NCBI GenBank assembly: GCA_902783255.1
Contig: CACZQB010000058.1
Coordinates: 1 to 64,000 of the forward strand
DNA: 64,000 bases
Direction of reading: 5' to 3'
From: Oscillospiraceae bacterium
GTDB taxonomy: Bacteria; Bacillota; Clostridia; Oscillospirales; UBA644
The notes below the pieces were generated by a model that made no database searches, was not told where the DNA came from, and saw nothing but the letters and a program-made list of their open reading frames with translations. This document shows, in pieces, positions 2,484-6,464 of this stretch. A program made the translations under genes and the position numbers. Every line of letters starts with the position of its first letter. Position 1 is the stretch's first letter.

Positions 2484-2903
2484 TTACTTAAGCATTACCG
2501 CGTCAGTCAGTGTGCAGTATCTGTATTCATCTTCATAATACGTGCCGAAAATTCCTTCGACCGTTATTTGCTCTCCGACCTCCGGATATTCATCCGGAAA
2601 AACTCTTTCTTCCGCAAGTTCAAATTCTATACCCTGCGAGCAACATGCCGTGGCGTCCGCTATAATACATGCATAATAATAGCGGTCTGTTCCCTCCGCA
2701 TACGAAAAAGCGCCCTGCATTTTTACAGTCTTCCCTTCGTATTCTTCCGGGGAATTCATCATATTCAGAACTTCCGAATAAACCATCGTTCCGCTCATTA
2801 CAGTCAGATCAATATAATCAGGGTCGTAAGACTGTTCTTTACCGCATGCCATAAGAGATAGGCACATCATCGACACAATAAACAAGCAGATAATCTTTCT
2901 CAT
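2484..2903 (-). CDS. Lipoprotein with a CC-containing OB-like domain, last gene of the zinc operon
   Basis: A 139-residue exported lipoprotein. The N-terminus is a signal peptide ending in the lipobox LMAC (Cys20). The rest is one small beta-rich domain with the pattern YEGKTVKMQG, then ADATACCSQGIEFEL, then GEQITVEGIFG. This resembles the C-terminal domain of the TIGR03943/DUF1980 (YcgQ-like) proteins, which carry a CC pair and are often encoded in zinc-responsive operons; that link is inferred from pattern only. Its ATG overlaps the permease stop (ATGA, 2900-2903), which implies translational coupling. A role in metal handling at the outer face of the membrane is likely. The precise function is unknown. 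Confidence 0.75.
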   Translation of the reverse strand: MRKIICLFIVSMMCLSLMACGKEQSYDPDYIDLTVMSGTMVYSEVLNMMNSPEEYEGKTVKMQGAFSYAEGTDRYYYACIIADATACCSQGIEFELAEERVFPDEYPEVGEQITVEGIFGTYYEDEYRYCTLTDAVMLK

Positions 2904-3754
2904 TTCCTTATTCCTCCTTTAATTGATCCACAAATAAAGAATAAAACGAAAACAATTATATCGACCGCAACGATCGTAGAGCCTACCGGTGTTCCCGCAA
3001 GGATAGAAACAATAATTCCCGAAGAGGCACATATTACGGATACTATCGCCGAACAGATCGTAACAGATCTGAAAGTTTTAAACACTCTCATTGCCGAAAG
3101 AGCAGGGAATATTACAAGAGCCGAAATAAGAAGAGAACCGACAAGATTCATTGCAAGAACGATAATGACCGCTATTATGACCGCAATAAGTAAGTTATAA
3201 ACTCCTGCTTTCGTTCCCGTGGCTCTTGCAAAATTTTCGTCAAAAGTTACGGCAAATATCTTGTTGTAAAAAACTATGAAAACAGCAACTGTTATAACCG
3301 AAAGAACGCCGCATATCCACACTTCCGTCGTTGTAAGCGTTAAAATGGATGTCGATCCGAAAAGGGTGGAGCATACATCTCCCGAGATATTGCTCGACTT
3401 TGAAAAAATATTCAGAAGAAGATAGCCTATTGCGAGTGCTCCCACTGAAATCATCGCTATGGCTGCATCGCCTTTGATCTTTGCGTTCTGTCCTACCTGC
3501 AAAAGCAATATTGCGCTTACGACTGTTATCGCCAGCACAAACGGCATATTGTTTGTAAGATCGAATACCGCAGCAAGAGCCATTGCGCCGAACGCAACAT
3601 GTGAAAGACCGTCACCTATAAATGAGAACCTTTTAAGGACCAGTGTCACACCCAGCAGTGATGAACAAAGCGCTATCAGAACCCCTACGATCAGGGCATA
3701 GATTACGAACGGATACTGAAAATACAGAATGAGTTTATTGAACAGCTCACCCAT
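2900..3754 (-). CDS. znuB: Zinc/manganese-type ABC transporter permease (ZnuB family)
   Basis: Membrane subunit of a cluster 9 metal-ion ABC importer, about 284 residues with seven to nine hydrophobic segments. The family pattern LGVTLVLKRFSFIGDGLSHVAF appears near residues 38-60, and SLLISALVIFPALSAMRVF occurs in the second half. I chose ATG 3754, which has GGTGAG just upstream and overlaps the ATPase stop. A GTG three codons earlier (3763) is an alternative. It sits in the order regulator, small membrane protein, binding lipoprotein, ATPase, permease, lipoprotein, so zinc is the likely substrate, although manganese cannot be excluded by sequence alone. Confidence 0.9.
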   Translation of the reverse strand: MGELFNKLILYFQYPFVIYALIVGVLIALCSSLLGVTLVLKRFSFIGDGLSHVAFGAMALAAVFDLTNNMPFVLAITVVSAILLLQVGQNAKIKGDAAIAMISVGALAIGYLLLNIFSKSSNISGDVCSTLFGSTSILTLTTTEVWICGVLSVITVAVFIVFYNKIFAVTFDENFARATGTKAGVYNLLIAVIIAVIIVLAMNLVGSLLISALVIFPALSAMRVFKTFRSVTICSAIVSVICASSGIIVSILAGTPVGSTIVAVDIIVFVLFFICGSIKGGIRK

Positions 3755-4457
3755 TCGTCTCACCGCCCTTCAAAAACAGACGTGCTTCAACGCTTGAAAG
3801 ATATTTTTCTTTCGTTCCGCAAAATACTGTTTTTCCTATGTGGATGATTTTTGTCGCATATCTCAGGGCTGCCTCGATATCGTGCGAGATCATCACAATC
3901 GTTATTCCGTCATTGCGGTTCAGACTGTATACAATATCGTATATTTCCGCCGTAACAATAGGGTCAAGACCCGTTACCGGTTCATCCAAAAGAAGCATTT
4001 TTTTTGTAGCGCAAAGCGCTCTTGCAAGCAAAACACGCTGCTGCTGCCCGCCGGAAAGCTCACGGTAGCATTTGTCCGCATATTCGCTCATCCCCATTTT
4101 TTCAATGTTGCCCGCGGCGCGTTTTTTCTCCTCTTTATTGTAAAAAGGTCGCAATCCCATTCCGTTTCCGCATCCCGACAGCACGATCTCTTTTACTGAT
4201 GCCGGAAAATCTTTCTGAACAACTGTCTGCTGCGGAAGATATCCGATTTCCGTCTGCTTAAATCCGTCGCCTGCGATCACTTTGCCTTCAAGAGGCGGCT
4301 GAAGACCGAGAATCGTTTTCATCAGAGTGCTTTTCCCTGACCCGTTTTCCCCGACTATGCAAACATAATCTCCCGAGCTTATATCAAAATTCAGATTTTC
4401 AACGATCGGGTGTCCTTCATATCCCAGGGACAGGTCTTTACATGTAAGTAATGCCAT
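3747..4457 (-). CDS. znuC: Zinc-type ABC transporter ATPase (ZnuC family)
   Basis: ATP-hydrolysing subunit that energises metal import through the adjacent permease. It has 236 residues with Walker A GENGSGKST at 36-44, signature LSGGQQQR at 134-141, Walker B MLLLDEP at 154-160 and the switch histidine in MISHD. The start ATG 4457 follows GGAGACTTA. It begins 9 nt after the stop of the binding lipoprotein and overlaps the permease start, so the three are co-translated. All catalytic motifs are intact. Confidence 0.93.
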   Translation of the reverse strand: MALLTCKDLSLGYEGHPIVENLNFDISSGDYVCIVGENGSGKSTLMKTILGLQPPLEGKVIAGDGFKQTEIGYLPQQTVVQKDFPASVKEIVLSGCGNGMGLRPFYNKEEKKRAAGNIEKMGMSEYADKCYRELSGGQQQRVLLARALCATKKMLLLDEPVTGLDPIVTAEIYDIVYSLNRNDGITIVMISHDIEAALRYATKIIHIGKTVFCGTKEKYLSSVEARLFLKGGETNG

Positions 4458-4466
4458 TAAGTCTCC

Positions 4467-5468
4467 TTAACTTAAAGCTTCTGTAATCGCTTCAAGATTT
4501 TTTTCCATAACAGAAATATAATTCGTGCCTTTTTCACGATCCTTCAGAGTCGTTGCCTGAAGAGAGTCCAGAACAATTATCTTCTGATCCTTTGTTTTTG
4601 TGTTTTCTTTAATTGTAGTTGCTATTTTGCCGTCTGATGATTCTATGTGAATGATCGCATTCAGACCAAGTTCATCCACTTTGTTTGCAAGAAATACAAT
4701 AGTTTCAAAGCTTGCTTCGGTTTCAGCGGAACATCCCGCAAAAGCGGCATAATAATCAAGTCCGTAGTCGTCAGTCAGATATCTGAACGGGAATCTGTCG
4801 CCGAACAGAAGAGTTTTCTTTTTAGTATTGCTCAGTGCCGTCTGATATTTGTCGTCAAGCGCATTCAGGTTTTTTATGTATGTTTCAAGATTTGCGGTGT
4901 AAATATCTTTGTTTTCAGGATCCTTTTCAGAAAGCCTGCCGGCAATTTCGCGGCATAACTTAACAGCGTTTCTTATTGAAAGCCAAACATGCTCGTCGTA
5001 TTCGGGACCTTCTTCATGTTCGTCTTCGTGTTCATCCTCGTGGCGATCATGTTCCTCTTCCTGCATTCCTTCGACAATCTCTTCCTCTTTAATATCGTTT
5101 CCGAGTAAATCAAGAAGATTGATAACTGTCATATCTTTGTTTACGGCATTTTTCAGAACATCATCGACCCATTTATCCGATTCTCCGCCTACATATATAA
5201 ACACATCGCATGTCGATATTTTGATGATGTCGTCAGCGGTAGGCTGATAGCTGTGAAGATCAACTCCGTTGTTAAGCAGCATGGTTACTTCCGTATCGTC
5301 TGCTTTTTCTCCGAGGATATTCATTACCCAATCATATTCGGGAAAAATAGTTGTCACTACCGTAAGCTTATCATTATCTGCCGAAATGTTTCCGCATCCT
5401 GAAATCAGGACTGAAAGCATTGAAATAACAATGATCACAATATATGTTTTTTTATATGAGTTTTTCAT
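4467..5468 (-). CDS. znuA: Zinc-binding lipoprotein of the ABC importer (ZnuA family)
   Basis: Extracellular substrate-binding protein that captures zinc and delivers it to ZnuB. It has 333 residues from ATG 5468. The frame stays open 28 codons further upstream, but the signal peptide starts at MKNSYKK and ends in the lipobox LISGC (Cys25). A His in LHSYQ (72) and the domain order fit cluster A-I metal receptors. Between the two lobes lies an acidic, histidine-rich loop (about 128-160, with His 140, 143, 147, 151 and 160), which in this family distinguishes zinc receptors from most manganese ones. The operon position next to a Fur/Zur regulator supports zinc. Confidence 0.92.
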   Translation of the reverse strand: MKNSYKKTYIVIIVISMLSVLISGCGNISADNDKLTVVTTIFPEYDWVMNILGEKADDTEVTMLLNNGVDLHSYQPTADDIIKISTCDVFIYVGGESDKWVDDVLKNAVNKDMTVINLLDLLGNDIKEEEIVEGMQEEEHDRHEDEHEDEHEEGPEYDEHVWLSIRNAVKLCREIAGRLSEKDPENKDIYTANLETYIKNLNALDDKYQTALSNTKKKTLLFGDRFPFRYLTDDYGLDYYAAFAGCSAETEASFETIVFLANKVDELGLNAIIHIESSDGKIATTIKENTKTKDQKIIVLDSLQATTLKDREKGTNYISVMEKNLEAITEALS

Positions 5469-5548: not shown

Positions 5549-5838
5549 TCAATTCAGAAGCTTGATCTTAAATAACGATGCATATTTTCTGTATTTATTG
5601 CCGGAATAACGGTTTTTCGCCGGAGTATCAATAATGTGGCAAACAAGAAAAAGTCTGGCTGCGACCGCGGCGCCGAAAAAATGAACTGCTGTTCTGCAAA
5701 TCGAAATCAGTTCGCATATATGACATTGTTCACCGTTGCAGTCATGGTCAGATTCGATTATCATTAACGTGAACGATGCGGCAACACAAGCAATAACCGT
5801 CAGTGCGAGGCATAATGCGGATATCCTTTTTTTCTCAT
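5549..5838 (-). CDS. Small Cys/His-motif membrane protein of the zinc operon, apparent frameshift at its start
   Basis: An 80-100-residue protein with one clear N-terminal hydrophobic segment (ISALCLALTVIACVAASFTL), then the metal-ligand-like motif SDHDCNGEQCHICELISIC and a second hydrophobic stretch. Similar short proteins with an HDC..CxIC motif are, to my recollection, common beside Firmicute zinc transporters; their function is unknown. The best start is ATG 5838. It has GGAGG four nt upstream and overlaps the regulator stop as ATGA, but that frame hits a stop after 12 codons. A run of seven A directly follows; an eighth A, or a -1 ribosomal slip there, gives M-R-K-K-R-I-S-A-L and joins the long frame. 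The long frame itself is open back to 5881 with weaker starts (for example 5863). Confidence 0.6.
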
Positions 5839-6284
5839 TGTGCCTCCGGTTTATTTTCGGCATTTTCCGTTTTTTTTGCACATTTATCGCAAAGTCCGTA
5901 AAAAACGGTTCTTCCTGCCATCATCGTAAAATTATGCACCTTATACAGATGCGTGCTTATCTCCTTTATTTCTTCGCATTTCAGATGAATAAGTTTTCCG
6001 CAGTCAACGCATTTGCAGTGAAAGCAGGAAGTGTTTTCTTCTTCGATACTGTCGTCATATTCAAAACATGCCGGAGAAGTTGAGTCTATTGTGAATTTTT
6101 TTACCGTTCCCTCGTCTACCAGCCTTTCAAGCTGCCTGTAAATTGTGGAAACTCCGATATTTATACCTATGCTTTTAAAATGCTCGTGAATATCTCCTGC
6201 AGTAACATGCGTATGTGGCACTGTTTTTAAATAGTCGATCAGAAGATCTCTTTGCCTTGTGTTGTATTTTGATTTTTTTTCCAT
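5835..6284 (-). CDS. zur: Fur-family metal regulator, probably Zur
   Basis: A 149-residue DNA-binding repressor of the Fur superfamily. The N-terminal winged helix (about 10-70) contains HVTAGDIHEHF and GVSTIYRQLERL. The C-terminal half has the structural zinc site formed by Cys92/Cys95 and Cys132/Cys135, with extra Cys87, His89 and Cys90. I chose ATG 6284, preceded by GAGGG; the frame is open further but has no ribosome site. It is the first gene of an operon encoding a zinc importer, and two matched palindromes flank its promoter, so autoregulated Zur is the natural reading. Fur or PerR specificity cannot be excluded by sequence alone. Confidence 0.85.
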   Translation of the reverse strand: MEKKSKYNTRQRDLLIDYLKTVPHTHVTAGDIHEHFKSIGINIGVSTIYRQLERLVDEGTVKKFTIDSTSPACFEYDDSIEEENTSCFHCKCVDCGKLIHLKCEEIKEISTHLYKVHNFTMMAGRTVFYGLCDKCAKKTENAENKPEAQ

Positions 6285-6307: not shown

Positions 6308-6322
6308 TGAAAACTATTTTCA
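6308..6322 (-). promoter_or_regulatory. Candidate Zur operator 1
   Basis: Perfect palindrome TGAAAA-CTA-TTTTCA directly downstream of the -10 box, over the expected transcription start. Its arms are identical to those of the second site at 6358-6372. Confidence 0.6.
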
Positions 6323-6351
6323 ATTTTAACATGAAAATGATCGTTTGTCAA
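6323..6351 (-). promoter_or_regulatory. Sigma-A promoter of the zinc operon
   Basis: On the minus strand TTGACA (6351-6346) and TAAAAT (6328-6323), spacing 17 bp, about 40 nt upstream of the regulator's ATG. It lies exactly between two palindromes. Confidence 0.85.
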
Positions 6352-6357
6352 GCAATT

Positions 6358-6372
6358 TGAAAAAAGTTTTCA
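6358..6372 (-). promoter_or_regulatory. Candidate Zur operator 2
   Basis: Palindrome TGAAAA-AAG-TTTTCA just upstream of the -35 box. The symmetry extends to 9-bp arms (6355-6375). Its centre lies 50 bp, close to five helical turns, from that of operator 1. Confidence 0.6.
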
Positions 6373-6376
6373 AATT

Positions 6377-6464
6377 CATCGCAGAATTAATAAAAAACCC
6401 GAACATGATCCGTTCGGGTTCATCGCAGAATTAATAAAAAGCCCGAACATGATCCGTTCGGGTT
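6377..6464 (-). repeat. Tandemly duplicated terminator (2 x 44 bp)
   Basis: Two direct copies (6377-6420 and 6421-6464) differing at one base. Each holds a CCCGAAC/GTTCGGG hairpin that on the minus strand is followed by a T-rich run. They sit past the stop of the PAP2 gene and shield the zinc operon promoter from read-through. Confidence 0.85.

Follow-up and report, generated by a model that had tools for sequence, protein, structure and literature searches.

Two palindromes flanking the promoter of a clostridial zur-znuACB operon are very probably paired Zur operators

We have found that the promoter of a zinc-uptake operon, zur-znuACB, is flanked in a clostridial genome by two palindromes, called here box U (upstream) and box D (downstream), which are very probably the paired operators of an autoregulated operon, bound by the zinc-loaded form of Zur, the product of its first gene, and acting in repression. 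A preliminary description of this DNA had already taken the palindromes for operators of that product, and the comparison of sequences from related genomes supports the proposal. The paired design is real, is common to many gut and rumen clostridia and is very probably functional. It provides a usable operator motif and a promoter anatomy for zinc control in Lachnospiraceae from rumen and gut and in related clostridia. Paired Zur boxes are already known elsewhere, in Bacillus and Streptomyces. Among the titles and opening abstract lines of openly available papers on Zur in Lachnospiraceae, in Clostridia and in C. difficile and on paired boxes, no description of the clostridial design was seen. 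The window, i.e., the whole stretch of DNA analyzed, comprises 64,000 nucleotides and belongs to a genome (G000) of 1,981,940 bases, 93.94% complete.

The promoter, its boxes and the zinc operon

Read 5' to 3' on the minus strand, a PAP2-family gene is followed by two copies of a terminator-like hairpin and by box U; TTGACA comes 6 bp further on and TAAAAT 17 bp after that, with box D and zur behind it. The features are the following:

6354..6376, minus strand: box U, a 10-3-10 palindrome, AATTTGAAAA-CTT-TTTTCAAATT, with its core at 6358-6372
6346..6351, minus strand: -35 hexamer TTGACA, invariant in five congeneric genomes
6323..6328, minus strand: -10 hexamer TAAAAT, preceded by the TG of an extended -10
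6308..6322, minus strand: box D, predicted operator of the 7-1-7 form, coding strand TGAAAAT-A-GTTTTCA, containing the exact motif
5835..6284, minus strand: zur, first gene, Fur-family regulator of 149 aa (PF01475, 67.8 bits against a cut-off of 23.1)
5549..5863, minus strand: small ORF of uncertain start; contains a hydrophobic stretch and DHDCNGEQCHIC
4467..5468, minus strand: znuA, substrate-binding lipoprotein with a His/Asp/Glu-rich loop (PF01297, E 4.4e-70)
3747..4457, minus strand: znuC, ATPase (PF00005)
2900..3763, minus strand: znuB, permease (PF00950, E 1.4e-46)
2484..2903, minus strand: lipoprotein gene at the end of the operon, with an ATACC motif

Both TGAAAA-N3-TTTTCA palindromes are exact, at 6308-6322 and 6358-6372, and they do bracket a consensus promoter, U standing before the TTGACA and D after the TAAAAT, with 11 of the 12 hexamer positions matching the consensus over a 17-bp spacer. 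The core of U ends 6 bp upstream of the -35, D abuts the -10 directly on the downstream side, and the start codon of zur comes 23 nt past D. If transcription begins seven bases past the -10, the start would lie near 6316, inside box D; the centres of D and U would then fall near +2 and -49, respectively. The 6-3-6 form in which the motif had been described is right in its letters, but box D is better read as a 7-1-7 repeat with one mismatch between its halves; the centre of box U (CTT on the coding strand) breaks the 7-1-7 symmetry. Scored as 7-1-7 inverted repeats of the Fur family with the pattern TGRRAAYNRTTYYCA, which was composed after viewing the locus sequences that it scored, D has no mismatches and U has one. 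The consensus arms of the Bacillus Zur box are TCGTAATnATTACGA, and the TGAAAA arms found here differ from them, as had been noted; the boxes are not of the Bacillus type. A reading of the palindromes as RNA structure was rejected, since U sits upstream of the promoter and D spans the inferred start, and Rfam gave no match at the gathering score within the 64-kb window. The terminator-like hairpin between the PAP2-family gene and box U is a 44-bp tandem duplicate (6375-6418 and 6419-6462, 98% identical), of which the congener G007 seems to hold a single copy.

The genes behind this TTGACA-17-TAAAAT promoter are those of zinc uptake, and the association is conserved in related loci. A loop rich in His, Asp and Glu, such as the one in the znuA product, is typical of zinc-binding ZnuA. 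Neither the small ORF nor the terminal lipoprotein has a Pfam or NCBIfam match. Among the 80 zur loci retained as the best of 550, 43 contain relatives of the lipoprotein and 13 those of the small ORF (by tblastn), with none of the latter found in the congeners G008 and G009; the small ORF may code for a metal-handling membrane peptide.

Apart from the zur product, the genome gave no Fur-family match. Its PF01475 domain is above the cut-off, Foldseek matched the modelled structure to PerR, Fur and Zur proteins, and the sequence matches in the PDB included B. subtilis PerR, several Fur and the Zur/FurB entries 2o03, 3mwm and 4mtd. The curated NCBIfam model for Zur (PRK11639) scored 29.3 bits against the 167 required and the other Fur-family models were also below their cut-offs, so that the name Zur rests on the fold and the operon context. 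The single-chain model (mean pLDDT 79.7, pTM 0.50) gave Foldseek TM-scores of ~0.4, a poor superposition over both domains, and it speaks therefore for the fold only. The structural CxxC...CxxC zinc site is present, with C92, C95, C132 and C135 invariant in 81 relatives. C73, C87, H89, H100, C103, H112 and H117 are invariant too, and C90 is kept at a frequency of 0.99; the pattern used to search for relatives required C95, G96, H100 and Cys or Lys at 103, so the conservation of C95, H100 and C103 was partly imposed, that of the other invariant residues was not. Among the positions of the regulatory ligands (M site and D site) H89 is kept, while two positions that are His in solved relatives, as far as the alignments place them, read C87 and G124 here. 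To our knowledge, conserved Cys or His at 73, 87, 90, 103, 112 and 117 are not typical of characterised Zur sensors. These six residues are a candidate Cys-rich regulatory site, and such a set, unlike the ligands of characterised Zur proteins as far as the alignment maps them, may define a subfamily.

Recurrence of the pair in related genomes

Within the genus, a Zur match was found in five of ten genomes, the one analyzed here plus G007, G008, G009 and G013 (the last cut by a contig end), and ZnuB in four of the ten, with none found in G013. In all five zur loci the two boxes are exactly 50 bp apart. An ungapped alignment of the five left 22 of 23 columns invariant in U, 12 of 15 in D and all six in both the -35 and the -10, compared with 5 of 17 in the spacer, 2 of 20 in the upstream flank and 3 of 18 in the 5'UTR. 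The arms are TGAAAA nearly everywhere in the genus, TGATAA appearing once, in G007, whose box D (TGATAACAGTTTTCA) is one base from the exact motif. The five genus genomes with no Zur match (completeness 57 to 96%) gave no pair of exact motifs. In two genomes from other genera of the family (locus L010 of G004 and L009 of G014), the box after the -10 upstream of zur has the arms TGCGAGTAAATCGCA and TGATAGTAAATATCA; recognition-helix residues of the regulator differ there as well, and Zur and its operator may possibly have changed together.

For a wider comparison, a similarity search with an alignment of seven Zur sequences was used, from which the best 80 of 550 loci were kept, mostly titled Lachnospiraceae and other clostridia MAGs, many of them from rumen or gut. 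With our own locus and that of G013 they make 82 loci, all related to one another (L053, L054 and L055 are those of G007, G009 and G008). Allowing up to two mismatches to TGRRAAYNRTTYYCA in the 250 bp before zur, 9 loci had no box, 14 had one, 50 had two, 8 had three and one had four. At least two boxes were thus present in 59 of the 82, against 0.1 per 82 in dinucleotide shuffles, in which 76.45 loci had no box, 5.45 had one and 0.1 had two. A box D with up to two mismatches to TGRRAAYNRTTYYCA, adjoining the -10, was found in 70 of the 82 (the misplaced boxes of L087 and L123 being excluded), and both U and D, with up to two mismatches each, were at their promoter-anchored positions in 53. 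Of these 53 dual loci, 40 have 6 bp between U and the -35, 46 have a 17-bp spacer, and 44 have D abutting the -10. A further 17 loci keep D alone, and U is therefore not essential to the design. On a tree of the Zur proteins (built on few columns, with 47 of 80 inner branches open) the label UD needed 16 changes, against 24.9 in shuffles.

The pair goes with the importer genes. In 73 loci out of the best 80 of 550, one or more znu proteins were detected at no less than 40% identity. Among the nine loci without a box before zur, four (L102, L112, L118 and L126) have znuA ahead of zur, and in these, two boxes stand before znuA. The spacing is 49 bp in three of them; L126 is atypical, its boxes being 59 bp apart and the second one weaker. 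In L057, L104, L106, L115 and L124, which make up the rest, zur has no neighbouring znu genes, and the stretches examined there contained no box pair at up to one mismatch, only an isolated one-mismatch site within the gene in L124. The pair is thus found before znuA when znuA leads and is absent when zur lies apart from znu, i.e., it travels with the zinc-importer operon. Two loci with no znu match, L061 and L098, each have a D box, and their sequence stops soon past zur.

A pattern made of DNA only (U, TTGACA and D) was also run over 391 genomes of the class and matched in three of them, with no control matches. All three matches directly precede zur and znuA, the Zur proteins being 32-55% identical to ours. 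This is a test of specificity and gives no prevalence, since the strict pattern misses our own genome (because of the CTT centre of U) and many of the dual loci.

The motif in the rest of the genome

The preliminary description had suggested a scan of the genome for TGAAAA-N3-TTTTCA, and the motif proved to be rarely exact, with three distinct sites, two of them U and D, against one for the reversed-pattern control. The third, at C9:5691, overlaps a TTGAAA -35 ahead of a gene that we take to be xylose isomerase (L001 1501-1515), and this palindrome over the -35 is kept in the congener G007 (L033). Degenerate matches are another matter. In the 64-kb window, 19 were found at up to two mismatches, against 11.57 expected (sd 3.51), a value reached in 1 of 100 shuffles. 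The genome holds 53 sites at up to three mismatches to TTGAAAACNGTTTTCAA against 19 in the control, and 36 at up to one mismatch to TGRRAAYNRTTYYCA against 4 in the reversed control. With weak matches this common, one could regard U and D as chance A/T-rich palindromes beside an unrelated promoter, a reading that we consider barely credible and have rejected. The pair is kept in the five congeneric genomes, it recurs in 53 loci of the 82-locus set (the best 80 of 550, plus two), and three out of three matches of the DNA-only pattern in the 391 genomes precede zur-znuA. Single weak matches being so frequent, it is the pair that stands out and not the single box.

The 34 other sites at up to one mismatch to TGRRAAYNRTTYYCA were placed on open frames by a greedy longest-frame rule and their neighbours judged by eye. 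Thirty-one fall within an open frame, one of them inside znuC and another (L039) in a frame of just 60 aa flanked by two larger genes. Three are intergenic, namely L145, L165 and, at the promoter of the xylose isomerase gene, L001. No second metal-uptake gene was seen by eye beside any of the 34 in our own genome. From these placements, no target beyond the zur-znu operon was detected, and the single matches have for the most part the look of background; a wider Zur regulon was not seen among the sites at up to one mismatch in this genome.

In the congeners the exact motif occurs at 21 sites outside the zur promoters. Among the 14 that were placed, ten are in an open frame or at its start and four are intergenic (L024, L033, L036 and L151). 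In five of the 21, all in the congeners G006 and G012, the core forms the middle of an extended palindrome that reads CG-TGAAAA-N3-TTTTCA-CG or nearly so. Since neither genome has a Zur match, specificity for Zur cannot be read from the core motif alone. The longer palindrome, approximately CACAAAACCTGCGTGAAAA-N3-TTTTCACGCTAT, recurs at L024, L151, L153 and L154 in G006 and at L036 in G012; at least one of these sites precedes, as judged by eye, a GntR-like regulator and an ABC gene. It looks like the operator of another regulator.

Spacing of the boxes and the part of each

The 50 bp between the centres of U and D had been described as about five turns, with both boxes on the same face of the helix and repression by cooperative or looping binding. 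Neither point found support. At 10.5 bp per turn, 50 bp are 4.76 turns. Over the 53 dual loci the distance was 48 bp in 4, 49 in 13, 50 in 25, 51 in 7, 52 in 3 and 53 in 1, that is 4.57-5.05 turns. Selection on phase would offset a longer gap in one place by a shorter one elsewhere. The variance of the U-D distance (1.067) was compared with the sum of the variances of the gaps (1.019) and showed no compensation, 0.676 of 10,000 shuffles giving a value as low or lower, in a set of related loci with little variation and hence limited power. The offset being absent, phasing is not supported. The spacing is most simply explained as the outcome of separate anchoring, of U to the -35 and of D to the -10.

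It is improbable, in our opinion, that the two Zur dimers touch across the promoter, whether through cooperative binding in phase or through a short loop, with 50 bp selected for that contact. The range observed spans nearly half a turn, the compensation test (limited in power) speaks against it, the two boxes of L123 are 67 bp apart and those of L126 59 bp, and a distance of 50 bp is well under the persistence length of DNA. What can be said for it is that 50 bp is the commonest spacing (25 of 53 loci), all values falling within 48-53 bp, and that S. coelicolor Zur is reported to be able to bind DNA as oligomers (PMC5472717). Independent or additive binding of Zur at U and D is more likely than looping, each box being placed relative to its own promoter element. 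We infer a mechanism in which, with sufficient zinc, a Zn-loaded Zur dimer would bind D, over the start site directly past the -10, and another would bind U, just ahead of the -35, where an UP element would lie. A dimer at either box would hinder RNA polymerase, and the two together would make repression tight; as zinc runs short, Zur would come off, and the importer and zur itself would be made.

Systems already described offer partial parallels. S. coelicolor Zur binds a 7-1-7 repeat, TGAAAATGATTTTCA (PMC2823685), and box D matches this actinobacterial consensus at 13 of 15 positions and differs at two; position 7 of the boxes is C or T here, unlike in S. coelicolor. The znuA gene of that organism has two Zur sites (Kd ~15 and 19 nM; PMC5472717, PMC6103462), and resembles our operon both in the box type and in the pairing of sites at a zinc-importer promoter, but its boxes overlap the -35 and the -10 (PMC6103462), whereas ours border the promoter on its outer sides. 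In B. anthracis, yciC has two Zur boxes with 33 nt between them, and B. subtilis yciC likewise has two (PMC6336718). The B. anthracis case resembles ours in that a zinc-starvation promoter has a pair of Fur-family boxes, ~52 bp from centre to centre if each is 19 bp long; one box nearly overlaps the -35 and the other is downstream, positions relative to the -35 and -10 that are not those found here, and the arms are 9-1-9 of Bacillus type with a metallochaperone as target, in contrast to zur-znuACB. The significance of the pairs at S. coelicolor znuA and B. subtilis yciC is regarded as unclear, independent action being the most likely (PMC6103462). At P. aeruginosa czcR there are also two Zur boxes, bound independently in tests on the czcR 5'UTR region, and the gene is an export regulator, unlike the zinc-importer operon here (PMC9827704).

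The two boxes are not equal. Their consensus over the 53 dual loci is TGAAAATnATTCYCA for U and TGGGAACGGTTCTCA for D, and the half richer in G+C tends to face the promoter (31 loci against 5 for U, 27 against 6 for D). This inequality suggests different strengths or roles. Tentatively, and with the odds against it, U and D could be deliberately unequal, with different affinities or roles that would set two zinc thresholds through a single Zur, U possibly boosting or tuning expression. If true, a two-step zinc switch would be common to clostridial zinc operons and paired with the Cys-rich Zur subfamily. More doubtful still is that U is mainly an UP element, or an activator site, with D alone repressing. 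UP elements lie where box U lies, U is A/T-rich in our genus, its outer half is the more A/T-rich one (in the same 31 loci against 5), and the 17 loci that have no U retain D. There is besides a precedent in the Zur box of S. coelicolor zitB, located 8 nt upstream of the -35 (U is at 6 bp), which activates (PMC5472717) and makes a positive or tuning role for U conceivable, but there the gene is an exporter, and here it is an importer with a second box over the start. Against this, U retains palindromic GRR/YYC arms across the family, which a plain UP element does not need, and activation by zinc would be of no evident use to a zinc importer.

The loci compared hold natural variants (D only, U with D, D with a second downstream box, and three boxes) that make up a test set for the effect of a second box. 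Three boxes, the extra one 18-26 bp downstream of D, are seen in L074, L086, L096, L120, L128 and L131, and L073, L121, L130 and L132 lack U and carry, besides D, another box downstream at 24 bp.
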